From NCBI GenBank assembly GCA_018000295.1, contig JAGNKE010000005.1, forward strand, positions 62,001 through 126,000: 64,000 nt of DNA, written 5' to 3'. Origin of the DNA: Alphaproteobacteria bacterium. GTDB lineage: Bacteria; Pseudomonadota; Alphaproteobacteria; Micavibrionales; Micavibrionaceae. The notes under the pieces are model-generated. The model saw only the letters and a list, made by a program, of their open reading frames with translations, searched no databases and had not been told where the DNA came from. Below are positions 40,635 through 58,922 of the stretch, piece by piece (within the stretch, counting starts at the first letter, position 1; every line of letters begins with the position of its first letter). The position numbers and the translations under genes are program-made.

Positions 40635-42110
40635 TTACTGGCTTAGGCTCCCCATCGTACCTTTGATAACCCACTTACCGTTAACTTTGGTAATGGATTT
40701 AATTTTGCCGAAACCCGCAACGCGGTCCCCAATTTCAACAGACTTCACATCTCCAGTACGGCTGTCATAAAGAACGGCACTCCCGGGTTGTGCGGACCTT
40801 AACTTCCAAGAGGAAGCAGGGGCGGTTTTCTTGGAAACGACAACGGGTTTCTGGGGCGATGTTTCGACTTTTTTATCGGGGACAACTGGGTTCTGTGCCA
40901 GCATTTCCGGCTTATCGACGCGAACATCCACGGCCTCAGGTTGAACTCCGCTGTTCGAGGACGTCCCACCAGTGCTATCCTTCGCGGGAACCAAAGACAC
41001 AGAAGGAGAAGGCGAAGCAAGAGGCTCAGAAGCTGATATCTGATCTGGTTGTTCGTTCGAATCGCCCAAAGCGGAACTCTCGGCGAGATCACCATCGCTG
41101 ACCATTTCCAAACCTTCCTTGCTGGAGCTTTCTGAAACGGCCATAGGAGAATCATCTGAATTTTCGGGTTCCTCCAAAGAAGACAAGTCGTTCGGTTGAC
41201 TCAAAATACCGCCTTTCTCAGCTGTCAGGTCAGCTGAAGCGGCCAAAGAAGAAGAGGCCGCGTCAAGGCTGCCGTCCAAAGTTTCGGCAGATTCCAGAAC
41301 CTCATCGACCTGTTTGCCGAGATCTAACTCACTCAAAGAATCAGACTCGGAAGCAATAACAACAGTATTCGCTGCCTCCGGGGTCTGTAAATCAACCGCC
41401 TGCCCGTCAGAAAGGCCGACGTCAGGTAAAGACTCACTTTCGGAGCCTGTCGAGGCAATAGTCCCAGGGGCCACTTCGGGAGCAAGAACCTGACCCGAAG
41501 GATCCTGAGCCAGCATTCCATCTTTTTCAGCCAGAGGAGCAATCTCTCGGATCTCCCCGTCAGCCATTTCTAAAGGCTGCAAATCTGAAGTTGAAACATC
41601 AGCACCAGGAAATGGAGTCAACACACCATCCCCATCGCTGTCGCCAGTCAAGGAGGTTGAATCAGCCGACACGCCGGCGGCATCACTTTCATTGGACGCA
41701 GGGCCTTCTTCCTTGGCAGATTCCAGATCCAGCTCTTGCGGAGCAGAGCTATCCTGCGGCATAGGGGGCAAATTCTGTAGCTCTGAAGATGTTAACGAGT
41801 CGGACGATGAAGGTATCGCTTCCTCTATTACAGACGAGCTCGCAGAAACGGCAGAAACACTTTTTTCAGTCTCCAATCCAGGGATAAGCTGGTTCTGGTA
41901 GGCGTACCAAGAGCCCCCACCCAAAAGTGAAATCAAAACCAAGCCAAATAACAATCCACCAGAAGACTTCTTTTTAGCGCCGCGCAAAACGTCTTCAGGC
42001 GAGGAAGCGCCCTCCTCAGAAGCTACAGCACTATCAGTCTCCTCACCCCACTGATCTTCATCAATAGTATCGAGATCGTCGAAATTTTCGACCTTTCCCT
42101 TGCCTGTCAT
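40635..42110 (-). CDS. icmG: IcmG/DotF-like inner-membrane protein
   Basis: A 491-residue bitopic protein. It has an acidic cytosolic N-terminus, one membrane helix near residues 52-70 (GGLLFGLVLISLLGGGSWYAY), then a very long Ser/Glu/Ala-rich disordered or helical stalk of about 350 residues. A small C-terminal domain (AVLYDSRTG, then VEIGDRVAGFGKIKSI) has the pattern of the PilP/TraP/IcmG C-terminal domain. In Legionella DotF helps assemble the core complex and recruits substrates. The stalk is far longer than in Legionella DotF (about 270 residues in all). The assignment rests on synteny plus the C-terminal domain. Confidence 0.75.
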   Translation of the reverse strand: MTGKGKVENFDDLDTIDEDQWGEETDSAVASEEGASSPEDVLRGAKKKSSGGLLFGLVLISLLGGGSWYAYQNQLIPGLETEKSVSAVSASSSVIEEAIPSSSDSLTSSELQNLPPMPQDSSAPQELDLESAKEEGPASNESDAAGVSADSTSLTGDSDGDGVLTPFPGADVSTSDLQPLEMADGEIREIAPLAEKDGMLAQDPSGQVLAPEVAPGTIASTGSESESLPDVGLSDGQAVDLQTPEAANTVVIASESDSLSELDLGKQVDEVLESAETLDGSLDAASSSLAASADLTAEKGGILSQPNDLSSLEEPENSDDSPMAVSESSSKEGLEMVSDGDLAESSALGDSNEQPDQISASEPLASPSPSVSLVPAKDSTGGTSSNSGVQPEAVDVRVDKPEMLAQNPVVPDKKVETSPQKPVVVSKKTAPASSWKLRSAQPGSAVLYDSRTGDVKSVEIGDRVAGFGKIKSITKVNGKWVIKGTMGSLSQ

Positions 42111-42189: not shown

Positions 42190-43455
42190 CTAGGTATCGT
42201 CATTCTCAGAAGTCACAGCCTCGGTAAAAAGAATACCGATAGGCGTACCAGCATGGATCTTGACGAGAACCTGAACATCATCATTGATCTCTTCAATAAT
42301 ATCTCTGACTTCCGCACCAGCCTCTTTCACACCAAGAGCAACCTCCTCTTCTGTGTTTAAGTCTTGCTGTGTATCAGTCGTAGTCGTACCGCTCGATCCC
42401 GTTTCGATAACGATGCTCGTGGCGTCAGATTGTGCGATGGCTTCGGAAAAGCCCTCGATAAAAGCCGCCGCCGCAGGCAAAAGAATTCTCTGTAAATAAC
42501 GGTGATCGACTTCCGTGGCCATACCAGGCAAAGAAGTGTCAGGATCCAGAGCTATAGCAGAAATTCTGCTGTCACGCCCGTCGACGACAATTCTATCGAA
42601 CTGGAGGGTAAGGTAGTCGTTCTGAACAGTGAACGAGCCGATCATTTTCGAACCTCTCAAAGGGCCGGAAACGAGAAGTACGAGAACGGGACCAGGTATG
42701 TCAGAGTTAGCCTCAAGTAAAAGCTGACCATATTCAATCTCTCCGGCGGGAATAATAATCTCGGGGTCGACCTCTTCTTCCTCTCCGTCGAACTCTCCAT
42801 TCCCCTCAGCGTCACCTTTAGGGGCACCTCCACCTCCGCCGGCTCCTTCAGCTTCAACTTTATAAATGCGCTTGTACTGCATACGAATACGCTCACCTTG
42901 GCGGGAAAGAACATTCTGCATCTGCTTGGCCATGGAGTCAGCCATCTGCTTCATGGCTTCATTCTGCTGTTCAGAATCAAGAACAGTAACCGGCTCTACA
43001 TCCTCAGAGTCGCCAGTATCCCTAAGAACGCGCTCTTCCTGCAGACGTCTCCACCGATGCAGAGGATCCTCCGTCTCCTCCTGCTCCTCAGGAAGCTGAA
43101 GACGGTCGGAGGGGGTTTCAACAGGGACAGGAATGGTACTTTCTCCAGTCTTTATAGCCTTCTCAAAATCGGCCTCGTTAGCTTCTTCAACTGCCTCGAC
43201 ATAAGCAGGCGAAGCCTCGGCACCGCCCGGCGGGGAGTTCACCTGTGACGGCGCAGGAACCATAGACTTCTTAACCTCGTCAGGTTTAGCCCCAAAGAAG
43301 TAAAGAGCGCCAATAAAAAGTGCAACGACACCAAGAACGACCCCGACCTTTACGACCGGACTGTTCCGCCACATATCTCCAAGCGTGTTCTTCTGTACAA
43401 ACTCACCAAACCCCTCTTCAGAGCCAATGATTTCCTCGTCAAGATCGTCATTCAT
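42190..43455 (-). CDS. icmE: IcmE/DotG (TraO/VirB10-like) core-complex protein
   Basis: DotG spans the envelope and forms the central channel of the type IVB core with DotH and DotF. The 421 residues show a membrane helix near residues 35-54, a Pro/Glu-rich linker and a C-terminal VirB10-like domain: PAGEIEYGQLLLEANSDIPG, then VLVSGPLRGSKMIGSF and the terminal VHAGTPIGILF-like segment. It lacks the long pentapeptide-repeat region of Legionella DotG (over 1000 residues), so it resembles IncI TraO. It overlaps icmK by 8 bases. Confidence 0.93.
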   Translation of the reverse strand: MNDDLDEEIIGSEEGFGEFVQKNTLGDMWRNSPVVKVGVVLGVVALFIGALYFFGAKPDEVKKSMVPAPSQVNSPPGGAEASPAYVEAVEEANEADFEKAIKTGESTIPVPVETPSDRLQLPEEQEETEDPLHRWRRLQEERVLRDTGDSEDVEPVTVLDSEQQNEAMKQMADSMAKQMQNVLSRQGERIRMQYKRIYKVEAEGAGGGGGAPKGDAEGNGEFDGEEEEVDPEIIIPAGEIEYGQLLLEANSDIPGPVLVLLVSGPLRGSKMIGSFTVQNDYLTLQFDRIVVDGRDSRISAIALDPDTSLPGMATEVDHRYLQRILLPAAAAFIEGFSEAIAQSDATSIVIETGSSGTTTTDTQQDLNTEEEVALGVKEAGAEVRDIIEEINDDVQVLVKIHAGTPIGILFTEAVTSENDDT

Positions 43456-44674
43456 CTAGCAACTCCTCACGCTCAGAAAGATAAGCACGAACCATACGCC
43501 CTTTATCGGACAACAGAAGGACAGGGGCATCGGCAAGCGCATAAACTCTAGTCCCATCAGCGGACGACACTGAACTCTCCCAGCCGGGCGACAAAAGCGT
43601 CAAAGGCGTCCGCACGTAAGTATAGTTATTATACTTAAAAGCGCTTGTACGACCGTCTACGCCGGTAACGGAAAGCTTCACAGCTTCCTTAGGCATAACC
43701 CCGGACAAAGCCGCTGACATATCAACATCTCCGGCCGCCAAAGTCACACCGGGTTGCATGAGGGGAGCCTTGGCAAAGGGCCCGTTACCAGGAATAACAG
43801 CATCAAAACGGTAATAGACAATATCCCTGTTGGTCTCCAGAGTGAAAATAATAGGGGTATCAAGACCAACCATCTTCATGGACATATTGCCGTGACCGAA
43901 ATCGTTCTGTGCTGAAACCCGCACCATATTCACAAGATCAGCCTTCCCGTCACTCTGAATTGCAAAGTTCCCAACCCACGAAATATCCTCGATAGGCCAA
44001 GGCGACCCGGAGCTGTCGACCATACTGATACTGGTAACATACCCGAAGGCTAGCTTTATGGTAAGAGGGGGACTCCCAGGATCAAGGGAGATGTTCTGAA
44101 CAACACTCTCAGGCCTGGGATAAGGATGAACAGGAGTCTCGGTAGACTCTACAGTCCTGTCCAAGCGCTCAAGCAGGGTTCGAATTTCATTTGGCCGCAA
44201 AGGAAGAATTCTGTTAAGAGCGGCTTGAAAAGCACCCTTTCTGAAATCATCCTCAAGCTGCTCGGAGGTTTTCTGAAATTCATCAAGACCCTCATCTTCC
44301 TCAAATTCAAAAGGATCCTTCTCAGGATTTTCAACATCGAGAGCTGGCATAGACTCAAGCACACTCTCATCAGGAGCATCATTCTTATCATTATCCTGGC
44401 CGGCAACCTCTGCTGACTCGCCACCGCCGACTCCATCTTCCAGATCGGAAAGGCCGCCATCTTCAAGGGCCCCATCACCAGAAGAATCGTCGTCGACGGC
44501 TGGAGAACCTAATTCCCCTGCGGCATCCTCGACCTCAGAGGTTGGAGATGCGCCCCCATCCTCCTGCGCGTGAGCCGGAAACGCAACGGTTGCAGAAACA
44601 AAGAGCGCACCAGCAGACAAGCAACTGGCGACCCCAACTAATAAGAAATTAAAATTCGATGTTTTATTTTTCAT
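43448..44674 (-). CDS. icmK: IcmK/DotH (TraN-like) outer-membrane core protein
   Basis: DotH forms the outer-membrane ring of the type IVB core with DotC, DotD and DotG. I chose ATG 44674 (408 residues) because it puts a signal peptide (LLVGVASCLSAGALFVSATVAFPAHA) at the N-terminus; the longer frame adds 39 residues. A Gly/Asp/Glu-rich region to about residue 110 is followed by the family core: FGYVTSISMVDSSGSPWPI, ISWVGNFAIQ, and the terminal YVRTPLTLLSPGWESSVSSA and ADAPVLLLSDKGRMVRA. The 206-base gap to icmL may hold an internal promoter. Confidence 0.94.
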   Translation of the reverse strand: MKNKTSNFNFLLVGVASCLSAGALFVSATVAFPAHAQEDGGASPTSEVEDAAGELGSPAVDDDSSGDGALEDGGLSDLEDGVGGGESAEVAGQDNDKNDAPDESVLESMPALDVENPEKDPFEFEEDEGLDEFQKTSEQLEDDFRKGAFQAALNRILPLRPNEIRTLLERLDRTVESTETPVHPYPRPESVVQNISLDPGSPPLTIKLAFGYVTSISMVDSSGSPWPIEDISWVGNFAIQSDGKADLVNMVRVSAQNDFGHGNMSMKMVGLDTPIIFTLETNRDIVYYRFDAVIPGNGPFAKAPLMQPGVTLAAGDVDMSAALSGVMPKEAVKLSVTGVDGRTSAFKYNNYTYVRTPLTLLSPGWESSVSSADGTRVYALADAPVLLLSDKGRMVRAYLSEREELLDE

Positions 44675-44880
44675 GACGAAAGATCTAACCCAGAAACTCA
44701 AAAACTTCGTTAAACGATACAATGGAAAATTCTGATTGTCACGTACTATCAACACCGTATCACAAATAATATTAAAACAAAACAACAACAACGCTCACAG
44801 AAGATAAGAAAAAACAAAACTTAAGGCATGGTCCATGCTGCAGCTAAGGAAGCAGGGGGGGGGCGGTGCCCAAAAGCAGG

Positions 44881-45585
44881 TTAGCGGGGAACCGCGACCC
44901 ATTGCTCAATACCCACTCCATTGGGGCTTTCAAGGCGGGGGACGCGAACAACAACAACCGTTACGAGTAGTCCCGTATTCTGTGTGCGGGCTCCGGATTG
45001 ATAAGTTAAAATCAGTGGAACCTGAACCACCCACTGGTAGCGGCCGGCAACCAGTCCTTCAGATTCAAGAATGGGGGCGCCTTTGGGGGCGGCGGTAAGA
45101 ACCTGCTGATTGACCTCCACCATTTCAATAATTCTTGATCGTTGAAGTGCTTGTGTAAAGCTCTCCCATCCGCGCTTGGTAAAATTACGAGACGCCTCTT
45201 GGAGTCTCCGGCGGTAATCGCTAAATCCGAAAGTCATGACCTCGGTGGAGGCTTGGGCAACCCAAGACATGAGCGCTGGAGCGCTAAGGTTGGGTTGATT
45301 AAGGGGGACCATAGGAACAAGGCGACCGTCCTCTGTTGTCGCAAAATATCGATGCTCGGGCTGGTGGGCGTAGATGACATAATACATCGCACCAATTAGG
45401 CCTAAGATAATAAGGCTCTGTATGAGCGTAAGCTTAAGAAGGCTCCGGTAGCCGTCCCTGTAAAACTCATTCCGTATGACCACGGTACCCAACCCGGAGG
45501 TGTCGGCCTCAGGCTCAGCATCAGCCCCTTCCTCAGTTGTTTGCGGCTCCGAGGGGGGGTGTTTTTTAGTGATTTTGCCTAGCAT
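44881..45585 (-). CDS. icmL: IcmL/DotI (TraM-like) inner-membrane protein
   Basis: DotI forms inner-membrane rings in the type IVB apparatus and has a periplasmic VirB8-like domain. The 234 residues comprise a polar N-terminus, one membrane helix near residues 52-71 (LTLIQSLIILGLIGAMYYVIY), and the periplasmic domain with PLNQPNLSAPALMSWVAQA and FSDYRRRLQEASRNFT. The C-terminal YQWVVQVPLILTYQSGARTQ strand pair is typical. It is the first gene of the minus-strand block and diverges from the five-paralogue cluster. Confidence 0.93.
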   Translation of the reverse strand: MLGKITKKHPPSEPQTTEEGADAEPEADTSGLGTVVIRNEFYRDGYRSLLKLTLIQSLIILGLIGAMYYVIYAHQPEHRYFATTEDGRLVPMVPLNQPNLSAPALMSWVAQASTEVMTFGFSDYRRRLQEASRNFTKRGWESFTQALQRSRIIEMVEVNQQVLTAAPKGAPILESEGLVAGRYQWVVQVPLILTYQSGARTQNTGLLVTVVVVRVPRLESPNGVGIEQWVAVPR

Positions 45586-45852: not shown

Positions 45853-47334
45853 ATGACGAAGATGCTAACGATCCGTAACCTTAAAAACTCCAGTATTATT
45901 GGGCGTATGATTTTTCACATCTTCGCCCCTCTCGCGATTGCTGTCGTAATTACGCTTCTTTTAACCCACTCGGCTTATGCAGCTTGTGGATGTTTGGTTG
46001 GCACGTGTTCGTCAGCGGATTGCTCGGCCGCAAGCAGTCAGCTCGATCAGTATCATGACGACATTGAGCAAAACACTCAGGATGAGTTTGATGACGATCT
46101 AGAGGCCTTTGAGGACTGGCTTGTAGAGCAGTTTTTTGAAGGGGAGGTGGTGCCGGCAATGGCTGACATGACCACCCAGATGAATGCCGTTGCGATGCAG
46201 CAAATGAATATCATTGGCGCTTTCATGGACGCTGACATTCAAATGGATACGCAAAGACTTTTCCAGCAACTTCAGGCGGAGGCTCACAAGGATTACCGCC
46301 CCTCCGATGATTTTTGCTGGTTTGGGACAAACGTCAAGAGCATGGCGCACTCGGAAATCAAAGGAAATCACAATGCTTTGGCGTTATCGGCCATGAGCAT
46401 TAAGCGACAGATTGGAAACGCAAATCTAAACTCTTCTGCTGGCGTTGAGCAGGATTTGAGGGGAAGATGGGGGCAGTTTGTCGATACTTACTGTGATCCT
46501 AAAGACAACAATTGGCTGGTTCCTTCTGCGCTGCCTCCTGAAATAGACGCCACTGATAATCCGCCGGGCAGTTTTTACGGCCAGCTGTCCGGGCTTGAGT
46601 ACGCCTGTGATCGTGATGGCGATTTCCCCGGACCTGATGCGAATCGTGGGGGGCCCAAGGGCGCGACAGATCCATGGCGCACAAACATAGATATTGACTA
46701 TACCCGTTTGGTGGAAGCACCAAGGACGCTCGATATAGATATTTCAAATGCCACAATGACCGATGACGAGGAAGATGTCTGGGCTCTTTCAAGAAATATT
46801 TTTGGTCACGAGGTTCTTACAAGAGATCTTTCTCGGCAAAAGACCCAGTCGAATAATGGTAAGAAGCTTTATCTGGCGGTAAGAAGCATTGCCGCAAAGC
46901 GCAGTGTCGCGCAATATTCTTTCGACAGTATAATAGGTCTGAAAACGGCCGGTACGGGATCTAATTTGGCTGCCGGTTCTCAGGTCCGCGAGTTTCTTGG
47001 GTCGATCATTAAGGAGATTATGCCTCTATCCACGCCTGACGAAGAAATATACGAATATATGGGAGAAGAGCCGAGCTATTATTCCCAATTGGAAATCATG
47101 AGCAAAAAACTATATCAGAATCCAGATTTTTACGCCAATCTCTATGATACACCGGCTAACATCAAGCGTAAACACGTGGCCATGCAGGCTATTGAGGTGA
47201 TGCTTGACAGGGCGATTTATGAAAGTCAGCTAAGAAAAGAGATGGTGGTCTCAGTTCTCCTTTCCAGTAAAATAAGGGCGGCCCAAAGAGAGGCCAATAA
47301 GCAGGTGGTAAACGCAACCGGGGGGCAAAAATGA
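45853..47334 (+). CDS. Exported protein of the five-member AHKDY family, copy 1
   Basis: A 493-residue protein of a family I do not recognise. The signal peptide ends near HSAYA, and the mature N-terminus is Cys-rich (CGCLVGTCSSADC). An acidic helix follows, then the shared core: AVAMQQMNIIGAFMDADIQM, AEAHKDYRPS (A at residue 144), FCWFGTNVKSMAHSE, QIGNANLN and TYCDPKDNNW. The C-terminal block PSYYSQLEIMSKKLYQNPDF then YANLYDTPANIKRK starts near residue 407. Probably periplasmic or surface. The longer frame from 45763 would precede the signal peptide by 30 residues, so I chose ATG 45853. The next gene overlaps by ATGA. Confidence 0.85.
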   Translation: MTKMLTIRNLKNSSIIGRMIFHIFAPLAIAVVITLLLTHSAYAACGCLVGTCSSADCSAASSQLDQYHDDIEQNTQDEFDDDLEAFEDWLVEQFFEGEVVPAMADMTTQMNAVAMQQMNIIGAFMDADIQMDTQRLFQQLQAEAHKDYRPSDDFCWFGTNVKSMAHSEIKGNHNALALSAMSIKRQIGNANLNSSAGVEQDLRGRWGQFVDTYCDPKDNNWLVPSALPPEIDATDNPPGSFYGQLSGLEYACDRDGDFPGPDANRGGPKGATDPWRTNIDIDYTRLVEAPRTLDIDISNATMTDDEEDVWALSRNIFGHEVLTRDLSRQKTQSNNGKKLYLAVRSIAAKRSVAQYSFDSIIGLKTAGTGSNLAAGSQVREFLGSIIKEIMPLSTPDEEIYEYMGEEPSYYSQLEIMSKKLYQNPDFYANLYDTPANIKRKHVAMQAIEVMLDRAIYESQLRKEMVVSVLLSSKIRAAQREANKQVVNATGGQK

Positions 47335-48794
47335 CCGGAGAGGGCAAACCTCAGTCAGAGGCAGGCGGCTTTGCTCGCCCCAAAACGACACTGGGGTGGG
47401 GTCTGAAACTGTCGCCTTTTGTAAAAAAGTTTCTTCTGGTATTTATCATGATTTCGGTTTTGGCAGGGTCAACCCTGACAATGAAAAGCCGGGAATCCGA
47501 AGCCCTTTGTATTCCTTGCTGGATGTGCGGCCCTATAGATTGCATCATTGTGCCCATTTTGGTGGAGATTATCGCTGAGATTTTTGAGCTCATCATTGAA
47601 GAAAACATCGAAGACCATATCAACAATGAAATAAACTGGATCGTCGAGGATTTCTTCGAGGATTTCTGGGTTATTGGTTTGGCGGAAATGACAGAGTTTC
47701 TCTCCGCCATGGGGATGTATCAGATGGAAATTGTAGGCGCGATGCTTGATGCAAAGCATCAGCTTGAGACCCAACGTCTGTTCTGGCAGTTGCACGCCGA
47801 AGCTCACAAGGATTACCACCCCAGCGATGAAATTTGCTGGATGGGGACGGCAGCCAGAAGTATGGCTGCTTCGGAAGCTCGCGGCCTTTTTAATAAGCGG
47901 GTATTGGCAGATTTTGGACTTGATCGGCAGCTTGGCAACGCAAATATGACCGGAGCCCAGTCTGTACAAAGAGACAAGGCTTCGCGATGGAGGCAGTTTG
48001 TAAGAACCTACTGCGATCCTAAGGATAATGACTGGGGGGGGCCAGGAACCGGTTTGGATTTGGCCTGTGATCATGACGGTCCCGGAGGGGCCGGAACGAC
48101 TGGGGCGACGAATCCGGCCAGAAAAAATATAGATATTGACTATGCGCGGTTAATTGACCAAAGGCGCACACTCGAAGTTAATTTTGAAGGCGCCACGGCC
48201 ATTCCACCCCCTGCGGACGAAGAGGATGTATTCGCTATGTCCGCCAATCTTTACGGGAACAGCGTCCTCTCGCGTAACCTGTCCCGTTTGAAACTAAGAA
48301 GCAAAAGTGGACAAAAATTATATTTGGATCTTCGCAGTGTCGCCGCAAAGCGAAGTGTGGCGCAGAATACGTTTAACTCGATTGTAGGGATGAAGTCTGC
48401 CGGAACATCGGATACATCCCTTGTTTCTGGTGGTCCACCCTTGACTCGGACCTTTTTAGCGGCGGCATTTAAAGAGCTGATGCCTCCGGCTACCCCTGAC
48501 TCAGAGATTTACGCCATTATTGGCGAGAACCCGAGCTACTATGCACAGTTGGAGGTTTTAGCAAAGAAGATATACCAGAATCCTGACTTCTACTCTGGTC
48601 TTTACGACAAGCCCGCTAACATTGCACGCAAGAGTACCGCCATGAAGGCAATAGACCTGATGCTTGATAGGGTCCTTTTTGAAAGCGAACTGAGACAGGA
48701 GATGATTCTTTCGGTTCTCCTCTCAAGCTATTCAAGGGACGATTTCAGGGCCCTTAACAACACCATAATCAACACACAAAAAGCGAGAGATTAA
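47331..48794 (+). CDS. Exported protein of the AHKDY family, copy 2
   Basis: A 487-residue second member. The signal/anchor helix KKFLLVFIMISVLAGSTL near residues 32-50 lies behind a longer cytosolic N-terminus. The mature N-terminus carries CIPCWMCGPIDC. The core follows: MEIVGAMLDAKHQLETQRL, AEAHKDYHPS (A at residue 158), ICWMGTAARSMAASE, QLGNANM and TYCDPKDNDW. The C-terminal GENPSYYAQLEVLAKKIYQN block is present. It is closest to copy 1; both have CDPKDN and an EEDV-xA-S-N-LYG-xSVLSR segment. It overlaps copy 1 by 4 bases, so expression is coupled. Function unknown. Confidence 0.85.
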   Translation: MTGEGKPQSEAGGFARPKTTLGWGLKLSPFVKKFLLVFIMISVLAGSTLTMKSRESEALCIPCWMCGPIDCIIVPILVEIIAEIFELIIEENIEDHINNEINWIVEDFFEDFWVIGLAEMTEFLSAMGMYQMEIVGAMLDAKHQLETQRLFWQLHAEAHKDYHPSDEICWMGTAARSMAASEARGLFNKRVLADFGLDRQLGNANMTGAQSVQRDKASRWRQFVRTYCDPKDNDWGGPGTGLDLACDHDGPGGAGTTGATNPARKNIDIDYARLIDQRRTLEVNFEGATAIPPPADEEDVFAMSANLYGNSVLSRNLSRLKLRSKSGQKLYLDLRSVAAKRSVAQNTFNSIVGMKSAGTSDTSLVSGGPPLTRTFLAAAFKELMPPATPDSEIYAIIGENPSYYAQLEVLAKKIYQNPDFYSGLYDKPANIARKSTAMKAIDLMLDRVLFESELRQEMILSVLLSSYSRDDFRALNNTIINTQKARD

Positions 48795-48816
48795 ACAGTT
48801 GAGATAATATGCTGTC

Positions 48817-50217
48817 ATGATGATCAAGTTTCTGAAGCTAAACGGCGAATCGAAATACAAAAAGACTTTTAGACGGAGTCTGGTTTTTGCTGTTGTTTTA
48901 TCTCTTCTTCTAACCCCCTCACGGCAGGCCTACTCGATTTGCTGTTCCTGTGCTGCCCTGCTTGCGCTTATAGATCCTTTTGTATGGCAAGAGGCAGAAG
49001 ACGATTTCAATGAGAAGCTGAATGAAGAGTTTCTCAGGTTGGAGCGTTTTATTGTTCACGAAATGTGGGAACAAAGCATCCTGCCGACGATGATGCTGGC
49101 AGCCGAACAATTTACTGCAGTGGCCATTCAGCAGGTTATGGCGATAGGAACCTTGTTCGATGCCAAGCAACAGTTGGAGACGCAACAGCTCATGCAGGTG
49201 ATGCAGGCAAGAGCCCACAAGGACTACATACCCAGCGTAGAAATGTGCTATTACGGGACGATGATTAAAAGCTTGGCCGCGACGGAAAGAAAGGCTGAGG
49301 TGAATGCCGTCATAATCAGTCAACGTTCCCAGGACCGTCAATTGGGCAACGCTCATCAATCTGCCACTTACGGCAATGATATAGATAAAGCGAATCGCTT
49401 GGCTCAATTCACAGCAAAATATTGCGACGAGCATGACCGGGATACGGCACTTTCAACTTACTGTTCAGCTCTTGCTTGGGCAGGCCTTACCGTAGCTCAG
49501 AGACAGCAGTTAAACAGAGATATCGATTATTTTTCTGTAATTGATTCTCCTTGGACAATAAAAATGGATTTCACGAACACGACAATATCGGCTGCTGGTC
49601 CTCCTGCAGTCGACAATATTGAGGAAGAGGACGTTCTCTCCCTGGCCAGCAACCTTTTCGCACACAACGTTTTCCCGCGGGTTCCGGCCCGGCTTCTGGC
49701 AAATAACATTGATCCAAGGCACCCGGCCTTAAGCGATATGCAGCAAGCGTATATGGAGCTTCGCTCTATCGTGGCAAAACGTAGCGTAGCTGAAAACAGT
49801 TATAACGCTATAGCAGCGATGAAATCCGATGGAAGTACAGCCTTGGATGCGGGGGGTAACGTAGTGCCCATGAACGCAAGAATTTTTCTTGAGCCAGTCC
49901 TGACGGAACTTGGGGTGCCCGCTGCAGAAGTTTTGGCTCTCATAGGCGAAAACCCGAGCTACTATGCCCAAATGGAGCTCTTAACCAAGAAAGTGTATCA
50001 AAACCCTGACTTCTTCACGAGCCTGTATGATACCCCGGCCAACGTAGACAGGAAATTGGTCGCTTTGCAGGCAATAAAGCTAATGCAGAAGTTTGATCTT
50101 TTCAAAAGCTTCCTCCGTAACGAGGCATCTTTTGCAGTTTTGTTAGAACTAGCCGTGGTGGATCTTCAGCGAGAGATTGAAGATCAAATAAAGACCGCTA
50201 ATACGACGGATGATTAA
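48817..50217 (+). CDS. Exported protein of the AHKDY family, copy 3
   Basis: A 466-residue third member. The signal peptide RSLVFAVVLSLLLTPSRQAYS is followed directly by ICCSC. An amphipathic acidic helix (residues about 50-85) leads into FTAVAIQQVMAIGTLFDAKQ, ARAHKDYIPS (A at residue 133), MCYYGTMIKSLAATE and a QDRQLGNAH segment. The YC-x-E-HDRDT region replaces CDPKDN. The C-terminal GENPSYYAQMELLTKKVYQN and FDLFKSFLRNEASF blocks are very close to copy 4. It lies 22 bases after copy 2. Function unknown. Confidence 0.85.
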   Translation: MMIKFLKLNGESKYKKTFRRSLVFAVVLSLLLTPSRQAYSICCSCAALLALIDPFVWQEAEDDFNEKLNEEFLRLERFIVHEMWEQSILPTMMLAAEQFTAVAIQQVMAIGTLFDAKQQLETQQLMQVMQARAHKDYIPSVEMCYYGTMIKSLAATERKAEVNAVIISQRSQDRQLGNAHQSATYGNDIDKANRLAQFTAKYCDEHDRDTALSTYCSALAWAGLTVAQRQQLNRDIDYFSVIDSPWTIKMDFTNTTISAAGPPAVDNIEEEDVLSLASNLFAHNVFPRVPARLLANNIDPRHPALSDMQQAYMELRSIVAKRSVAENSYNAIAAMKSDGSTALDAGGNVVPMNARIFLEPVLTELGVPAAEVLALIGENPSYYAQMELLTKKVYQNPDFFTSLYDTPANVDRKLVALQAIKLMQKFDLFKSFLRNEASFAVLLELAVVDLQREIEDQIKTANTTDD

Positions 50218-50219
50218 TC

Positions 50220-51542
50220 ATGGTTTTTGTAACGATAAGAAAATACTTTAAGAAGCCTATTCTTCTTGTTCTTTTTGTTATTTTTCTCTGTACGGCGCCT
50301 GTGACTGTAAAAAAGGCAGAGGCCATCTGTTGCGGCTGCTGCAGCTGTCTTACAGACGTTGTTTTTCCAGATGATCTGATCGCGTGGATCGAGAATTGGA
50401 TCAACATCAACATTCATATTTTTATTGAACTCACACTTCACCGGATATTTTTCATGGATTGGGAGTTTTGGCAGGAAAATCTTCTTCCGGCCATGATGGC
50501 GATGGCTGAGCAGCTGGCTGCGGTCGCTATGCAGCAAATGACCATATTAGGGGCATTTATTGACGCTCAGGAGCAGTTGGAAACCCAAAGGCTTTTTCAG
50601 CAACTCATGGCAAAGGCCCATAAAGATTACCATCCCAGCATCGAGATGTGCGAATTCGGAACGAGAATAAAAAGTTTGGCTGCAACGGAGCGCAGGGGTG
50701 AATTGGCTGCATACGCTCTAAGCCAGCGCTCGCAAGACAGGAATCTTGGTAACGCGAACGTTGCGGCTTTTGGTGGCCCGAGAAGCGATATCAAAAGTCG
50801 GGTTAACCAATATCTCTCAACCTACTGCGATCGCAGGGACAACAACGATGCTCTGGGTTTGATTTGTACGACGGGTGCAGGCGCCGCACAAAGAGAAAGG
50901 TACAACAAGGATATCGACTTCCCTCGGACTATTGCACACCCTTGGACGATCAACGTAAACCTTACGAACTTCGGTGCCGCAACGCCCCATGAGGAAGATA
51001 TCTTTGCCTTGGCTCAAAATCTTTATGCATTTGATACATACGATCGGCCTAACGCAAAAACGCTTGAGAACAACCCGACTCGGGAGGTAAACGGAGCGCA
51101 GCAGGCCTATCTGGATATGCGTTCCCGTGTGGCGCAGTTAAGTGTCGCAGAGTCAAGCTACAACGCTATAGTTGGGTTGAAGGCAGAGGGCACAGGCGGC
51201 TCACGCACTTTTATTGAGGCGTTTCTTCAGAATTTAGGACTGGCGGCTGCAGACGCCACAGCGTTGCTGGGGAATAACCCAAGTTACGACGCGCAAATGG
51301 AGATACTGACAAAAAAAGCTTATCAGGATCCAAGATTTTACACCAACCTCTACGATAAACCTGCGAACGTTGAAAGAAAGGGCGCTGCCATTCAGGCAAT
51401 AGGGCTGATTCAAAAGTTCGATTTATTCAAGAGTTATCTGCGAACGGAGGCGTCTCTGTCTATCTTGTTGGAGTTGGCCGTGGAAGACCTTCAAAACGAA
51501 ATAGAGGACGCTATCGATGATATCCATACTGCGTCTGAATAA
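50220..51542 (+). CDS. Exported protein of the AHKDY family, copy 4
   Basis: A 440-residue fourth member, the shortest. The signal peptide KPILLVLFVIFLCTAPVTVKKAEA is followed by ICCGCCSC. The core: LAAVAMQQMTILGAFIDAQE, AKAHKDYHPS (A at residue 133, same as copy 3), MCEFGTRIKSLAATERRGE, QDRNLGNANV and TYCDRRDNND. The C-terminal block has NNPSYDAQMEILTKKAYQDP, so one Tyr of the usual SYYAQ is Asp here. It starts 2 bases after the copy 3 stop. A close copy 3/copy 4 relationship suggests the latest duplication. Function unknown. Confidence 0.85.
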   Translation: MVFVTIRKYFKKPILLVLFVIFLCTAPVTVKKAEAICCGCCSCLTDVVFPDDLIAWIENWININIHIFIELTLHRIFFMDWEFWQENLLPAMMAMAEQLAAVAMQQMTILGAFIDAQEQLETQRLFQQLMAKAHKDYHPSIEMCEFGTRIKSLAATERRGELAAYALSQRSQDRNLGNANVAAFGGPRSDIKSRVNQYLSTYCDRRDNNDALGLICTTGAGAAQRERYNKDIDFPRTIAHPWTINVNLTNFGAATPHEEDIFALAQNLYAFDTYDRPNAKTLENNPTREVNGAQQAYLDMRSRVAQLSVAESSYNAIVGLKAEGTGGSRTFIEAFLQNLGLAAADATALLGNNPSYDAQMEILTKKAYQDPRFYTNLYDKPANVERKGAAIQAIGLIQKFDLFKSYLRTEASLSILLELAVEDLQNEIEDAIDDIHTASE

Positions 51543-51563
51543 CTTATCTCTAGGATGGTTGAC

Positions 51564-53357
51564 ATGACTGAAAAACGCAAAAAAAACAAGAAAGTCTTAG
51601 CCGCCGCTTCACTCTTGGCGATCTGTGTTACTTTTTTTGCAGCCTCGTCACTTTATTTCGACTCCAGCAAAAGCTTGAACGATTCATATCTAAATCTATC
51701 CCATTTCAATCCAAATGCGACTCTGAACTACGAAATCTTTAGCAATGGAGAAATTATTGAAAAAGGAAACAAGCAATTTGATAAGTCTGGAAGTATAAAA
51801 ATAGACACATCGTCATACTTAACTCCTGAAAAGGAAGGGAAACTGGCCTATAGGTTTGATATACAGTCCGGGCCACAGCAAAATCAAACGGACAATTCTG
51901 CTGTCAACTTTCTAATTAAACTGGACAGAAAGACGGGAGGGATTGAATACACAGGATCGGGTCTGGCCGAGTTTTCAAAAATTCTTGTATCAGATGGAAG
52001 CAACACACTCGAAACCAGCGCTGATTGGGCAGGATATTTTGCTGGAGACAACCTATTCAATACCATGGATAGCAAAAACCGCAACCTCATGAAACTGGCA
52101 TTCCAAAACTACAATCTGCAGAATGACGGTGACGTTGATCGTGAACCGCCGGTTGTGGAGGTTTTGTTTGGTGACCCTTCCGCAGACGGTGTATCGGACG
52201 TCCAGGCGCGTTACAGCGCGGCTATGATCATGATGACCGAGCAACTCTCGGCGGTCATGATGCAGCAGGCTTTCATTATTGGAACCTTCTTCGATGCAAA
52301 GATGCAGTTGGAGACACAACGGAAGCTCCAGGAGCTTATGGCCCGCGCCCACAAGGATTACCACCCCAGTGAACAGATATGTCGCTTTGGTACCTTTGTC
52401 AAAAGTCTTGCTCATTCTGAGCGTGCATTCGAGTTGGACATGAGGGCTCTGAATAAGGCTCTTTTGAATGAGGCTCTGAGTGTGCAGCACGACAGTGCGG
52501 GGGAAGGTTCGAAACAATCTGTCTTAAACCGCATCAATCAGTTCTCAACAAAATATTGTAATCCACGGGACAACAACGACAGTTTGGATGCTTTATGTTC
52601 AACCCTGACTGCCGCGACTCCTGCCCAAAGGGAAAGGTTTAATAAGGATGTTGATTTCTTCCGCACGATTGATGGCAAGCTTACTCTAGATGCAAACTTT
52701 GCAGATGGGACACTGACAAATGAGGAAGAGGACATTTTTGCGCTTGCATTGAATCTTTATATGCCCAACTCTTTCGACACTATGGAAACCAACGACGTTA
52801 CTGAAAATCCTGTGAGCCAATATAACGCACGTAGGCATGCCTCTATAGTCGCCGCGGCTCAGAACAGCTTTATCAATATTGTTGGAATGAAGACAAGCGC
52901 GCCCCCGGGACAGGCAACGGTTGCACCAGGAGCTTGGCCTCCGAATATACTACCTCCCCCACCCCCGGCCCCCGCTTTAACGGAAAATACGGGTTGGACT
53001 TTTATGAAGGCATTCATACGGGAATTGGGCTTACCTGGGATGACTGACGCAGAAATCCATGCGTATTTAGGCGAACGTCCAAGCTACTATGCCCAGATGG
53101 AGGTTCTGACGAAGAAAATTTATGAAAGCCCGAACTTTTATACCAATCTTTATGACAAACCAGAGAACGTCGATAGAATCGGTGCTGCAATAGATGCAAT
53201 TGGATTGATGAGTATGAGAGACAGGTTTGACTCCTCCCTGCGCCGCGAAATGCTGACGGGGCTCCTAGTTGAGGACGCCCTTCAAACTCACATCGAAAGC
53301 AATACCGTAAGAATTTTCAAGAACATTCAGGATGAGCAGCCGACTCTTAGAAATTAG
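51564..53357 (+). CDS. Fused member of the AHKDY family, copy 5, with extra N-terminal domain
   Basis: A 597-residue fifth member. I chose ATG 51564 because AGGA lies 8 bases upstream. A membrane anchor or signal (VLAAASLLAICVTFFAASSLYF) precedes a beta-rich domain of about 130 residues (about 35-165) not found in copies 1-4, which replaces their Cys-rich N-terminus. The core then follows: LSAVMMQQAFIIGTFFDAKM, ARAHKDYHPS (A at residue 262), ICRFGTFVKSLAHSER and KYCNPRDNND. A Pro-rich insert (ILPPPPPAPALTE) precedes the C-terminal GERPSYYAQMEVLTKKIYES. It is the last gene of the array, with no obvious terminator after it. Confidence 0.85.
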   Translation: MTEKRKKNKKVLAAASLLAICVTFFAASSLYFDSSKSLNDSYLNLSHFNPNATLNYEIFSNGEIIEKGNKQFDKSGSIKIDTSSYLTPEKEGKLAYRFDIQSGPQQNQTDNSAVNFLIKLDRKTGGIEYTGSGLAEFSKILVSDGSNTLETSADWAGYFAGDNLFNTMDSKNRNLMKLAFQNYNLQNDGDVDREPPVVEVLFGDPSADGVSDVQARYSAAMIMMTEQLSAVMMQQAFIIGTFFDAKMQLETQRKLQELMARAHKDYHPSEQICRFGTFVKSLAHSERAFELDMRALNKALLNEALSVQHDSAGEGSKQSVLNRINQFSTKYCNPRDNNDSLDALCSTLTAATPAQRERFNKDVDFFRTIDGKLTLDANFADGTLTNEEEDIFALALNLYMPNSFDTMETNDVTENPVSQYNARRHASIVAAAQNSFINIVGMKTSAPPGQATVAPGAWPPNILPPPPPAPALTENTGWTFMKAFIRELGLPGMTDAEIHAYLGERPSYYAQMEVLTKKIYESPNFYTNLYDKPENVDRIGAAIDAIGLMSMRDRFDSSLRREMLTGLLVEDALQTHIESNTVRIFKNIQDEQPTLRN

Positions 53358-53488: not shown

Positions 53489-55885
53489 ATGGGCCTTTCA
53501 GGACTGGATGCCGCGCTTTCCGGCCTAAAAATATACCAGAAACAGATCGAAACCATCTCCGCCAACGTCTCTAACGTTGGCACGGAGGGCTATACCCGGA
53601 AAATTTTGCCGCAGGCGGCGCAATCGGTCGGTGGTCAAACCGTAGGGGTCTTGGCCCGCACGGTTATCAGGAACGTGGATATCAACCTGGAGCGCGATCT
53701 CTGGACGCAGGTCAGCGCCGTGGGTTTCTATGACGTCCAGAAAACCTATCTGGAACGAATCGACCAGTTCCACGGCGAACCGGGTGCGGGAATCTCCGTG
53801 GCCGCCGAAGTGACAAAGCTCCACGAATCTTTCGTGGCTCTGGCCGACACGCCCGAAGACCGATTCCTGCGCGCCGATGTGGTCGATCAGGCTGCTGATA
53901 CGGCCAATAAAATCAATGAGTTATCCGATTACATCACAACCTTACGCAACGACGCGCAATCCGAGGCGGAAGTGGTCGTACAGAGCATCAACGACCTTCT
54001 TGAGCAGATCGCCGAACTCAACCAGCAGGTCCGCTACGCCATGGCTGCGGGGAACACATCGGCAGCCATGGAGGACAGCCGCGATCTGGCCATCAAGGAA
54101 CTCTCCTCTCTGATAGAGATCAGCCTTTTCCGGCGCGGCGATGGCGTTCTGGTCGTCCAGACAGTCGAGGGGGCCGAACTGGTAGGCGAACAGCCCAATC
54201 TCCTGACTTTCGATCCTTCGCCCCTCTCGGCCAATAATGCCTATCCGGCAACGGCGGCGGGTGTCTTCGTCGGCGATCCCAACACGGATCCTTCGGCCCT
54301 TGACATCACCGCCCGCACGGTGGGAGGCAGGCTGGGTGGCCTTCTGCAGCTCAGGGACGAGATTTTTCCCAAACAGATGGCCCAGATCGACGAACTGGCC
54401 CACAAGCTGGCCCTCCGGTTCGAGGCGCAGGGGCTGAGGCTCTTCACCGATTCCTCCGGCGGTATCCCCTCCGACAACCCGCCCGACACCGGGGTCAGCC
54501 CGGCCGATCCGGTGGATTATGTTGGCTTTTCCGCCCTGATTCAGGTGAACGGCCGTATCGTAAACGACCACAGCTTATTACAGAAGGGCACCTACGGGGC
54601 CGCCCCACCTCCCGGCTCGAACGAGATAATCCGGCGCGTATTGGAATTTACTTTCTCGGGAACCGAATTTCAGGAAGCGATAAACCAGGTGGAGGCAACC
54701 TCGGTCGATATCCGCGCCGCAGCGACCGGTGCGACGACCCTCCAGAACTGGCTGGGCCTACGCTCCAGCAACCAACTCGCGGGCAGTGTGGATTTAACCG
54801 CCTACAGCAGCATCGCCGATCTGGTGAATACGGGCGGCACGAACGTCTTCGGCATCGGCGGCGCGGAAACCGACCGCTTCATCATCCGCTTCGATGATCC
54901 GGATTTCGGCGGCGGCCCGTACGATATCGAAATCGACCTCAGAACCGTGGCGGTTTCGGGTAGCGGCGCGGTGCAGGATCTCATCAACCACATAACGGCC
55001 GACGCCGACTGGGCTAACGCCGTGGCCGATTATGGCGCCAGCGTTTCGGCTGGAGCCGACGGCGAACTCCTCATCCAGAGCCGCGGCAACATCCAGACTC
55101 TGGCCAGCGGTACCGAGCCTCTCTCCGATACGGGTTTCGCCTTCCTCGGCCTGAAGCCCGAACTCAAGGAAGCCACGGACCCATACTTCGACGTTAGCGT
55201 CGGCAACAACGCTGCGGTGCGAATCACCATCGAACCGACGGATACGGAAACAGACCTCCTCGCCAAGCTCAACGCCGTGCCCGGTCTGGTAGCCCAGACC
55301 GATGCCAATGGTTTTCTGTCTCTGCGTCCTGGCGGCAGCTTCGTGTCCCCCGATTTCGGCGGCGATATCAAGCTGGTGGGCGGCCCCTTCGAGACCGATA
55401 CGGCGGCGCTGGCGGGCACGGCTGCAGGCCGCGCCTCGATCAATGACGGCGTGAACATCGTTTCGGCGCTGTTCGGCACATATTCCGTCCTCTCAGGCGG
55501 CGCGATCAACGACGAATCGCCCATAGTGGACGTCCCCTATACCTCTGAAACCGAAAACGGCACGGGCTCTTTTGTTCATTTCCGCTCGGAATTTTTGGGG
55601 CCGGGGGCGAATATTGAATCCGAAGTCGTCGGTGCCCTGACGTTGGAGGATTACGCCCAGAAGATGGTAAACCAGCATGGGCAGGAACTGAACCTCATTA
55701 AGGAGCGCCGTGCGGATGAGGAAACTCTGCAAGGTTTGCTCGAAAAGGAACTGGTGGACAGCTCCGGCGTCAATCTGGACGAGGAACTGGGTTTTCTGAT
55801 CGTGGTCCAGACCGCCTATGCCGCCTCGGCACGGGTGATCAACGCGATCGACGAGATTTTTCAGGAACTGTTAAGAGTCGTATAG
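53489..55885 (+). CDS. flgK: FlgK, flagellar hook-associated protein 1
   Basis: FlgK forms the hook-filament junction. The N-terminal GLSGLDAALSGLKIYQKQIE and NVSNVGTEGYTRK segments are the flagellar rod/hook signature. The C-terminal VNLDEELGFLIVVQTAYAAS and a final helix form the coiled-coil D0 pair. The 798 residues are longer than the Enterobacterial protein (about 550), owing to an enlarged variable middle domain. It is exported by the flagellar type III system and has no signal peptide. A sigma-54 promoter precedes it, and flgL follows 13 bases on. Confidence 0.93.
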   Translation: MGLSGLDAALSGLKIYQKQIETISANVSNVGTEGYTRKILPQAAQSVGGQTVGVLARTVIRNVDINLERDLWTQVSAVGFYDVQKTYLERIDQFHGEPGAGISVAAEVTKLHESFVALADTPEDRFLRADVVDQAADTANKINELSDYITTLRNDAQSEAEVVVQSINDLLEQIAELNQQVRYAMAAGNTSAAMEDSRDLAIKELSSLIEISLFRRGDGVLVVQTVEGAELVGEQPNLLTFDPSPLSANNAYPATAAGVFVGDPNTDPSALDITARTVGGRLGGLLQLRDEIFPKQMAQIDELAHKLALRFEAQGLRLFTDSSGGIPSDNPPDTGVSPADPVDYVGFSALIQVNGRIVNDHSLLQKGTYGAAPPPGSNEIIRRVLEFTFSGTEFQEAINQVEATSVDIRAAATGATTLQNWLGLRSSNQLAGSVDLTAYSSIADLVNTGGTNVFGIGGAETDRFIIRFDDPDFGGGPYDIEIDLRTVAVSGSGAVQDLINHITADADWANAVADYGASVSAGADGELLIQSRGNIQTLASGTEPLSDTGFAFLGLKPELKEATDPYFDVSVGNNAAVRITIEPTDTETDLLAKLNAVPGLVAQTDANGFLSLRPGGSFVSPDFGGDIKLVGGPFETDTAALAGTAAGRASINDGVNIVSALFGTYSVLSGGAINDESPIVDVPYTSETENGTGSFVHFRSEFLGPGANIESEVVGALTLEDYAQKMVNQHGQELNLIKERRADEETLQGLLEKELVDSSGVNLDEELGFLIVVQTAYAASARVINAIDEIFQELLRVV

Positions 55886-55898
55886 ACGGAGAGAAACG

Positions 55899-57095
55899 AT
55901 GACAGGCATATCGACATTAGGCCAGGCGCTCAGGCAGATAGAAAATATCAAAAAGCAGCAAACCACTTTTTCCGACCTGTCCACGCAACTGGCAACCGGC
56001 AAGAAAAGCCAGAATTTCTCGGGTCTGGGAACCGATGCTTTAACCACGATTCGCTCCCGCTCCAGCATCGTCTCCCTTGATTCGTATATCAGCAACATCG
56101 GCAAGGCCGATACGCGCCTGAAGATCATGCTCTCCTCGATCGAGGAGTTCCAAGCCCAGGGCAATAACCTTGCTGACGGCTTTATCGGCTTCGTCCAGCA
56201 AGGCACCCACCAGCTGGGCGAGATCGTCACCTATGACGATCCCTCGACCCCGTTCGTGCATGAGGAGGTCGCCGTGGGCATGACCTCGGCCACGCCCGAT
56301 GAGGAGCTGCAGGGGCTGATCGACCTGTCGAAAAATCTCTACAACTACATGACCGAACTCATCAACAGCAAGGACGGCGACCGTTACGTCTTCGGCGGGG
56401 CCGAAACCCTGACCCCGCCCCTGAACGACACCGGAACGCTGGACGCGGCGGTCAGCACCCTGCTGACCAGCTGGAAAAACGGCACGATCACGACCGACCA
56501 GCTTCTGGCCGATATCCGCGACCGCACGGCGACCGCCGGCAACCCTGATGCCCTGACCGACAGCGTGATTGGCTACTCCGCGCCGCTCAGCGCCGGTAAC
56601 GCGGGCCGCGTATTCGTGCGGGTGGACGATGATTCGGAACTCGAATACACGGTCCATGCCAACGAGGACCCCTTCCGGGATATCCTTGTGGCGCTATCCT
56701 TCCTGAAAAACGAAAGCTTCCCACCGATTGCCGACACCTACGAGGACGGTGTATTCCCCGGAACGCCGGACGTGCAGGGCGCACCCGGTTACACTCTGGC
56801 GCAGCAGCAGGAAAGCTTCTACACCCTCTACAACGAACTGACAGAGATGGTGAGCCGTTCCCTTGATGAAATCGACAATATCCGCTTCGATATGGAGGGG
56901 GTGCGTGTCTCCATGAACGAAACCAAGGAGTTCCACGTCGATCAGAAAAATCTCTTCCAGAGCATTGTCTCAGGGATTGAGGATGCCGACACCAACGACG
57001 TCGCGCTCAAGCTGAACACGTTGCAGGTCCAGCTCGAAGCCACCTTCAGGGTCACAGCCCTGGTCAGCCAGCTTTCACTGGTCAACTTCATATAA
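55899..57095 (+). CDS. flgL: FlgL, flagellar hook-associated protein 3
   Basis: FlgL is the second junction protein between hook and filament. The 398 residues have flagellin-like N- and C-terminal helices: ISTLGQALRQIENIKKQQ and DLSTQLATGKKS at the N-terminus, and LNTLQVQLEATFRVTALVSQLSLVNFI at the C-terminus. It contains YVFGGAETLTPP, a recurrent feature of the family. It is co-transcribed with flgK, and a strong terminator follows immediately. No other flagellar gene lies in the window. Confidence 0.92.
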   Translation: MTGISTLGQALRQIENIKKQQTTFSDLSTQLATGKKSQNFSGLGTDALTTIRSRSSIVSLDSYISNIGKADTRLKIMLSSIEEFQAQGNNLADGFIGFVQQGTHQLGEIVTYDDPSTPFVHEEVAVGMTSATPDEELQGLIDLSKNLYNYMTELINSKDGDRYVFGGAETLTPPLNDTGTLDAAVSTLLTSWKNGTITTDQLLADIRDRTATAGNPDALTDSVIGYSAPLSAGNAGRVFVRVDDDSELEYTVHANEDPFRDILVALSFLKNESFPPIADTYEDGVFPGTPDVQGAPGYTLAQQQESFYTLYNELTEMVSRSLDEIDNIRFDMEGVRVSMNETKEFHVDQKNLFQSIVSGIEDADTNDVALKLNTLQVQLEATFRVTALVSQLSLVNFI

Positions 57096-57155: not shown

Positions 57156-58769
57156 TTAACCGCTGGCGGCCTCGTCTATGACCAAGGCGGCTTCCGGCCC
57201 GGTCTTCAAATTATGGTTAGGACCATTCTTCACGGCCTGAGCGAACAGAACCTTGACCGCATTGTCGAACGTCCCGCTGATCAGGATATTGCTGCTCAGC
57301 GTATAGTCCTTCTCGGCATTCCATTGCAGAGGCACGTTGGCCTGCTTGGACCAGCTATCCAGGGTTTCCTTCAGGCTCGACCCCTGCTTGGCTTCCCATA
57401 TCCGCGGCTGGAACAGCTGCTCGTTCGAACGGGAGGAGGGTGCAGGCTTTTCTGTTTCCTCGGCTTTGGCGGTTTTCAGAGCATCGTCGGAGGGAGGTGT
57501 AGGTTCGTCGGCCTTTGCCAGAATGACCTCCTCAATCTCTTCCTCATCCGATTTCTCGGCCTTTTGCGCTTCATCGGCAACAGGGGCTTTTACATCGCCG
57601 GGATCAAGAATGACGTTGCGTCCGGGCGCCTTCTTAACTTGCGGCTCCGGCGCAGCCTCAGGGGCGGAGGCAACCTTTAGAGTTTTTTCAGAGACAGGCT
57701 CTTCAGCAACCGCAGCTTCGACAGCGGTCTCCTCATCGGCCTTCTCTTCAAGCACCTTGGCCTTTTTAGCCAGCTTCTCGGCCTCTTTCTTGCTCAGCTT
57801 TTCAGCCTTCTTGTCAGCTTTCACGGGCAAAGACTCCGCTTCGGGAGTCTCGACAGGAGCGGCCTCAGGCAGAGGCGCAAGAGCGGCGCTATCCTCGGCT
57901 ACTGGAACAGGTTCCGGCGCGGGAACAACAGGCGCAGCACCCGAAACCACCTTGACGACATTGCCTTGGATCAAAGCCTTAATATTGAGAGGCCGAAGCA
58001 TATCGTCCAGAACCAGATTCCAAGGCTTGCCTCCCTCCCAGGACACGAGGTACCCGGGATTAACCCCCCGGCCGAACGAAAACGCATACTGGGCGGGAAC
58101 AACCTGACGCAGGGCCAGAGCCAGCGGCATATCGGACCCGAATCCCTCGATCACGTCAAAAGCCCCGCCTTTCCAGGCAATCACTTCCGGCTGGGCAGGA
58201 GCAGAGGTAAGTGCAGGCTCTGTATGGTCGGCGTCTGCAAGCGGGTAAGGATTGATGTTGAGCCCCGGAGGAGGTTCTTTATTAGCAGGCTCGTAAACAC
58301 TCTCGGCGGGTTCAGGCATAACCGTGTCGGTTCCCTGATGCGTTTCGGTGATTGGGAACGGCTCGGGTGCAGCTTCAACACCCTCTGACTTGGGAACAAG
58401 GGGGGCGCTCATAACGACAGGCTCAGCAACGCTATCATCATTGTCAAGGTCGCGTTCTTGGGTGCTAGCTTCATCGTGGGGGGTGATAACTTTGACCTTT
58501 AGACGCCCATCAGTATGCGGGGGCTGCACATCTTCCATAACTTGGTGTGCGGGCTCCTCGCTAATTTCAACGTCTCCGACCTCGGGAAGGCCGCTTGATT
58601 CACTTGAAAAGTCTTGTGTCGAAGAGGATTTCGGCAGCGGCGCGGCTACCTGCCTTTCTGGCGGGGTCCATTCAAATCCCGCAAAAACAGGGCTAGGAAT
58701 CAAAAAAAGTGGAAAAGCCAGAAAACCAAGGCACGTAGAAGTCAAAAAACGATTCGTTCTTACAGACAT
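57156..58769 (-). CDS. TcpQ/PilL-like protein with disordered linker
   Basis: A 537-residue exported protein. I chose ATG 58769 with GGGAA 8 bases upstream; the signal ends near SPVFA. A domain around residues 190-260 (FDVIEGFGSDMPLALALRQVVPAQYAFSFG) resembles the STN/PilL secretin-assembly domain. Ala/Glu/Lys-rich low-complexity sequence fills about 260-420. The last 90 residues (WEAKQGSSLKETLDSWSKQA, then LQWNAEKDYTL) match the TcpQ C-terminal domain of pilus-assembly proteins such as PilL of IncI plasmids. It lies downstream of dotD-dotC-dotB-icmT, so a role in the outer-membrane part of the system is likely. Confidence 0.82.
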   Translation of the reverse strand: MSVRTNRFLTSTCLGFLAFPLFLIPSPVFAGFEWTPPERQVAAPLPKSSSTQDFSSESSGLPEVGDVEISEEPAHQVMEDVQPPHTDGRLKVKVITPHDEASTQERDLDNDDSVAEPVVMSAPLVPKSEGVEAAPEPFPITETHQGTDTVMPEPAESVYEPANKEPPPGLNINPYPLADADHTEPALTSAPAQPEVIAWKGGAFDVIEGFGSDMPLALALRQVVPAQYAFSFGRGVNPGYLVSWEGGKPWNLVLDDMLRPLNIKALIQGNVVKVVSGAAPVVPAPEPVPVAEDSAALAPLPEAAPVETPEAESLPVKADKKAEKLSKKEAEKLAKKAKVLEEKADEETAVEAAVAEEPVSEKTLKVASAPEAAPEPQVKKAPGRNVILDPGDVKAPVADEAQKAEKSDEEEIEEVILAKADEPTPPSDDALKTAKAEETEKPAPSSRSNEQLFQPRIWEAKQGSSLKETLDSWSKQANVPLQWNAEKDYTLSSNILISGTFDNAVKVLFAQAVKNGPNHNLKTGPEAALVIDEAASG

Positions 58770-58922
58770 CTTATTATTCCCAAAAAAACATAAAGCCAAG
58801 CCCCGACGGACAGACAAGAGAGAATATCGTTAAATCTTTGAAAAAACAAGAGATAAGAAGACGGCTAACACCAACAAAAAACAACTGCAATAAAGGAAAG
58901 GCAGGAGATATTTAGTTTGGAG

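Follow-up and report, generated by a model that had tools for sequence, protein, structure and literature searches.

The five tandem genes at 45853-53357 (plus strand) of the window, the 64,000-nucleotide stretch of DNA analysed here, probably encode IcmX/TraW (VirB5-class) subunits of a chromosomal T4BSS that together form a heteropentameric ring. The assignment to IcmX/TraW, drawn from profiles and structural models, is close to settled. The mixed ring is something that we infer rather than a mixed assembly directly observed, and we rate it slightly above an even chance. The gate of Dot/Icm machines consists of IcmX and DotA: the literature places the IcmX/VirB5 and DotA/VirB6 pentamers on the machine's central axis, where they gate substrates, and reviews equate IcmX/TraW with VirB5 and seat its pentamer on the VirB6/DotA pentamer (PMC12624023, PMC12857230, PMC12981334).

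The five-gene array and its assignment to IcmX/TraW

The array is formed by five co-directional ORFs in a 2.68-Mb draft genome that is 100% complete. From first to last, and with the types defined by the gene tree described below, these are paralogue 1 (type A, 45853-47334, 493 amino acids, with a signal-like N-terminal stretch and a possible alternative in-frame GTG at 45763), paralogue 2 (type A, 47331-48794, 487 amino acids), paralogue 3 (type B, 48817-50217, 466 amino acids), paralogue 4 (type B, 50220-51542, 440 amino acids) and paralogue 5 (type C, 51555-53357, 600 amino acids), all on the plus strand. Their junctions are a 4-bp overlap and gaps of 22, 2 and 12 bp. The five products are 39-50% identical pairwise, have one full-length IcmX core in common and align with dozens of invariant columns, among them the motifs picked out by a sequence-only reading of this DNA. 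They are true paralogues, and the ORFs, spacing and motif columns are as that reading had described them. A sixth copy is absent from the window's genome assembly. Copies 1-4 possess an N-terminal hydrophobic stretch followed, by eye, by A-x-A/C-rich sites; copy 5 has a predicted helix at residues 10-32, and the models of copies 4 and 5 both start with N-terminal helices. The export proposed earlier is thus predicted from these stretches and helices. The array is not a chance arrangement, since the family turns up at 66 loci and its synteny is conserved there; the closest relatives of the array are found in MAGs named Micavibrio sp., Micavibrio aeruginosavorus or Alphaproteobacteria.

No Pfam or NCBIfam model identifies the array family, and matches of individual copies to DUF2524, DUF2756, DUF4179 and BALF1, below the Pfam/NCBIfam cut-off, were discarded. 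Direct sequence and profile searches of the PDB did not match IcmX with any profile. The family had been called unrecognised, a description that gives way, by the refuting condition set along with it, to a match with TraW of the IncI1 plasmid R64 and its relatives. An order-wide profile, which also takes in homologues, diverged or present as a single copy, that other families of the order carry, aligns co-linearly with TraW residues 73-385 of 400 over 288 columns (hhalign probability 98.8, E 5.4e-17). The 16 control profiles of this test (six column shuffles, reversed TraW, other families of the locus and DotA) stayed flat at E 0.026-0.94, while an independent, wider profile matched TraW with E 7.5e-13; the window family alone is marginal against the TraW profile (E 0.008). 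Common to both sides is a C-terminal Y-x-N-x-x-[FY]-x(3)-L block with a conserved R after it. It is this profile match, with its flat controls, that leads to the assignment to IcmX/TraW.

Structural models point the same way. With 108 aligned sequences, AlphaFold yields a confident all-helical model of copy 4 (pLDDT 87.7). A Foldseek search of the PDB returns chain 9ngy_AP1 first (E 1.1e-3, prob 1.00), ahead of the next hit (E 0.7) by almost three orders of magnitude. VIA-align superimposes the same pair with a Z of 13.2 over 260 residues, the next entry reaching 6.2, and the core of copy 5 also has its best structural alignment with this chain (Z 11.5 over 266 residues). Chain AP1 (residues 23-458) is taken as Legionella IcmX because the entry names chain FP1 as DotA. 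TM-scores to 9ngy are low (about 0.3), the rmsd is high and the protein is helical, so the structural match only corroborates the assignment; helical proteins may score well by accident, which is why the profile comparison with TraW was made. Compatibility with IcmX/TraW-type proteins, which had been suggested from length and export, has become membership.

The Dot/Icm locus around the array

The array diverges, as reported earlier, from a Dot/Icm operon. Immediately to its left and on the minus strand lies dotI/icmL (VirB8 class, 44881-45585, PF11393 E 3.2e-66), followed on the same strand by DotH/IcmK (43448-44791, PF12293 E 2.6e-71), a DotG/IcmE C-terminal (VirB10) protein (42190-43455, PF03743 and NF033900 with E 1.7e-55, the latter below cut-off), a DotF/IcmG-like protein (40635-42110, NF038218 E 8e-5 at its C-terminus only, below cut-off), a multi-TM TraQ-like protein with internal repeats (38787-40475) and a DotO/IcmB-like (VirB4-class) ATPase (34393-37431), the last identified by its conserved position and size, its VirB4/TraC matches being weak (E 0.03-0.05). 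To the right, also on the minus strand, are IcmT (VirB3 class, 58923-59222, NF038220 E 9e-23, above cut-off), the DotB ATPase (59263-60423, TIGR02524 E 4.9e-117), DotC (60402-61265, PF16932 E 2.8e-79) and DotD (61283-61792, PF16816 E 2e-35). With DotA elsewhere in the genome, the set of a protein-exporting T4BSS (pT4SSi, Dot/Icm) is present: DotA, DotB, DotC, DotD, DotG, DotH, DotI and IcmT. Relaxase-free pT4SSi have previously been reported in seven Micavibrionales (PMC9418006).

The linkage to Dot/Icm, a further claim made from the sequence, held in a co-occurrence check. DotH is present in 118 of the 123 genomes of the order that carry the array family, the remaining five genomes being 77-90% complete, and DotA exceeds its cut-off in 100 of the 104 genomes from the window's family. 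Whereas traW of R64 is a single gene adjoining traX-traY, the array adjoins dotI and lies away from dotA.

Several other features of the locus deserve mention. The TraQ-like protein is 562 amino acids long and apparently built of repeated multi-TM units, of which only the last resembles TraQ of IncI1 (NF033883 E 2e-10, residues 407-554, below cut-off); in many loci the corresponding region is matched as two ORFs. The genes flgK and flgL lie directly downstream of the array on its own strand (53489-57095, plus), as they do in most relatives, and these flagellar hook-filament junction genes may share a transcript with the secretion tip genes. Between flgL and icmT, a TcpQ-domain protein with a long low-complexity linker (57156-58817, minus) is kept at the locus across relatives. 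Four more diverged DotI-like (PF11393) proteins are encoded outside the main locus (G000:C11:139929, C29:93124, C44:55090 and C1:46237), the one on C44 lying no more than about 5 kb from a DotG-like ORF (L107:14219-16000).

Copy number and duplication history

An array was counted as complete when dotI or upstream sequence of more than 2.5 kb anchored it and at least 0.8 kb followed downstream. The 54 complete arrays comprise three (n=14), four (n=8) or five genes (n=32), and none goes above five. An apparent sixth copy in L043 is a split gene, and eight genomes with six to seven raw family matches each resolve to five genes, the surplus stemming from split hits, frameshifts or contig breaks. 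A stepwise model of copy number with a ceiling at five beats a no-ceiling model by 6.9 lnL with equal parameters, bearing in mind that copy numbers of related genomes are not independent of each other. The no-ceiling model prefers a five-copy ancestor and losses only, a history that fits badly with the recent sister pairs described below. DotH is single-copy wherever it is found, and the whole locus is therefore not amplified. The array family was not found on plasmids. A first look beyond the order, with limited candidates, gave it in 0 of 381 sampled genomes of the class outside the window's family.

Other families of the order carry different numbers. In family f5, genome G121 has a single IcmX gene exactly between dotI and flgK and G118 a single one adjoining dotI, and G140 of family f7 has two; these f5 and f7 counts are minima, because the profile can miss distant copies. 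In f2/f6 (G002, G005, G006, G125, G128, G132 and G138), four tandem IcmX genes are accompanied by one elsewhere. The distant copy is the long copy in G005, G006, G125, G132 and G138, while G002 has its long copy at the end of the four-gene tandem. With three to five IcmX genes in the window's family and one in G121 and G118, a single IcmX gene is a habit of the described systems rather than a defining trait of the protein family.

In the gene tree, the last copies of the arrays, mostly N-terminally extended (type C), separate from all others. Type-specific clades have support near 1.0, and the gene order A-B-C is conserved. Within the window's larger group, three-copy arrays complete the set with one A and one B. 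The longer array types seen are AABBC, AABC and ABBC; C is single in every typed array, and the window clade reads A1 A2 B1 B2 C. L071 arrived at AABBC on its own, by duplicating both A and B, and in the L050 clade AABBC has arisen within its own lineage. L043 displays its own recent duplication of B, and L027/L049 (ABBC) a separate recent one. L040, L042 and L044/L065 are AABC, with separate recent A duplications in L040 and in L044/L065. In L041, L045, L046, L051, L057, L067, L072, L075 and L076 the non-last copies do not split into A and B, and the group around L067 reaches five copies with A and B not told apart. Five copies thus appear, from the tree, to have been reached several times by separate A and B duplications, type C never being duplicated, with the caveat that gene conversion between neighbouring copies can mimic recent duplication. 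Orthologues are position-specific, and their identity between genera tracks that of DotG and FlgL, with similar divergence.

DotA/TraY has its own history. In the window's genome it is encoded by three tandem genes, 12 bp apart (G000:C10:127434-130415, 130428-133322 and 133335-136631), a triplet located away from the array (G000:C10:127434-136631, corresponding to L104:9434-18631, plus strand). Three tandem copies occur in 17 of the 20 dotA loci examined in the family, and four in G096, G097 and G110. Open frames of 1812-1876 amino acids that suggested fused DotA pairs were rejected, the DNA containing adjacent genes separated by stops. A joint rise of IcmX and DotA was considered and abandoned: it fits f5 (one and one) and f1 (three to five and three to four), but not f2/f6 (five and one to two). 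As DotA is single in several five-IcmX genomes (G125, G132, G138, G006 and G002), the two rings do not expand together and the IcmX expansion stands alone.

A candidate heteropentameric ring

The ceiling of five suggests that each IcmX gene supplies one position of a five-part ring. In the proposed history, the ring of the order would have begun as a homopentamer encoded by one gene, as in f5. Types A, B and C would have arisen first, probably giving an A2B2C1 ring, which the three-gene genomes would use, and repeated duplications of A and B, never of C, would then have split the paired positions until each had a gene of its own, each gene filling one position of one ring. The lone type-C subunit, with its N-terminal extension (Ig-like here), would mark a unique asymmetric position and could contact the target cell or time the opening. 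The full transition, from a homopentamer to an obligate heteropentamer with five gene-encoded positions above a DotA ring that would itself be partly heteromeric (three or four genes in the window's family) in an asymmetric gate, has in our view equal chances of being right or wrong. The sequence-only reading had suggested a hetero-oligomeric surface structure, or secreted or pilus-like components. Of these, the hetero-oligomer is judged probable; the pilus-like character finds no direct support, and the evidence favours a tip, plug or protochannel component of the VirB5 type.

The paralogues might alternatively each build their own homopentamer, yielding machines that recognise different prey or surfaces. 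By analogy this would resemble Bartonella, where trwJ (VirB5) and trwI/trwH are tandemly amplified and linked to host-specific adhesion in the excerpted text of PMC2883598, and the extra modules on some relatives' copies (Ig-like, M23 peptidase, C1q) suit surface contact. Copy number in Bartonella varies and orthology is hard to assign according to the same excerpt, unlike here, where orthologues are position-stable rather than hypervariable and diverge between genera in step with DotG and FlgL. Copy number moreover halts at five in each lineage checked and type C is never duplicated, which makes such a repertoire unlikely. A little less likely still is a hetero-oligomer of other geometry, in which A, B and C are stacked in tiers (tip, shaft, base) and the ceiling of five is coincidental. 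Different tiers could accommodate the three types, of which one has a long N-terminal extension, and DotA has three or four genes, not five; against this, five copies were reached independently, which agrees, as does the ceiling model, with the five-fold symmetry already known, and one full-length IcmX core is common to all copies. Neutral amplification with a dosage benefit only and interchangeable paralogues is highly improbable, for although tandem arrays form easily and arrays of three and four occur, the copies are only 39-50% identical, fall into well-supported type-specific clades in a conserved order and never exceed five.

The heteropentameric ring compares with several known systems. 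The Legionella Dot/Icm IcmX, seen in the DotA-IcmX protochannel of 9ngy, is alike in fold (Z 13.2 for copy 4), predicted export, Dot/Icm linkage and the presence of a DotA partner in the genome; it is a pentamer encoded by one gene, whereas the present array has five paralogues in close succession, of which one bears an added N-terminal Ig-like domain, and DotA is tripled. The closest precedents are the Bartonella trwJ/trwIH and the rickettsial rvhB6a-e arrays. Bartonella trw (tandem trwJ, trwI, trwH and trwL), an alphaproteobacterial T4SS, likewise combines VirB5-class tandem amplification with VirB6-class co-amplification. It is a T4ASS whose copy number varies with recombination; the excerpt of PMC2883598 interprets this in terms of variant tips that serve host adhesion, with variant pilus forms proposed for the tandem trwL and trwJ copies, and describes no ceiling at five. 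The rvhB6a-e of Rickettsiales are the closest numerical parallel, with five paralogues whose subunit class forms a pentamer in R388, but they belong to the VirB6 and not the VirB5 class, in a T4ASS, and the passages on them in PMC13203960 and PMC2653234 do not tie their number to a pentamer. The open-access literature yielded no link of IcmX paralogue arrays to Micavibrio, most Dot/Icm subscription papers lying outside its reach. The components are familiar; their arrangement and the series from one to five genes appear to be new.

If the ring is indeed heteropentameric, the individualisation of its subunits would let the role of each position of a secretion gate be tested. With one to five genes, the relatives would offer a natural series in which to follow how hetero-oligomeric rings evolve. 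The expansion would be a prokaryotic counterpart of those of the proteasome or V-ATPase rings, with intermediates (1, 2, 3, 4 and 5 genes) still living. The same question could be raised for the five rickettsial VirB6 genes and for Bartonella TrwJ. Micavibrio is a bacteria-hunting genus. To judge from this lineage, the machine would deliver proteins, plausibly into bacterial prey, and the array singles out a candidate device for such delivery in Micavibrio-like predators.

Added domains are found on several copies. In copy 5, the N-terminal helix is followed by a tandem Ig-like domain (residues 41-186) and then by the IcmX core. The Ig-like domain aligns with a designed Ig dimer (Z 9.3) and counts adhesin Ig repeats among its top Foldseek matches. 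An IcmX paralogue of one relative (L070:11182-13377, plus) harbors a Peptidase_M23 domain (residues 138-211) and a copy of another a C1q domain, both consistent with contact with the target envelope. By eye, the N-terminal stretches of several type-C copies are lysozyme-like.
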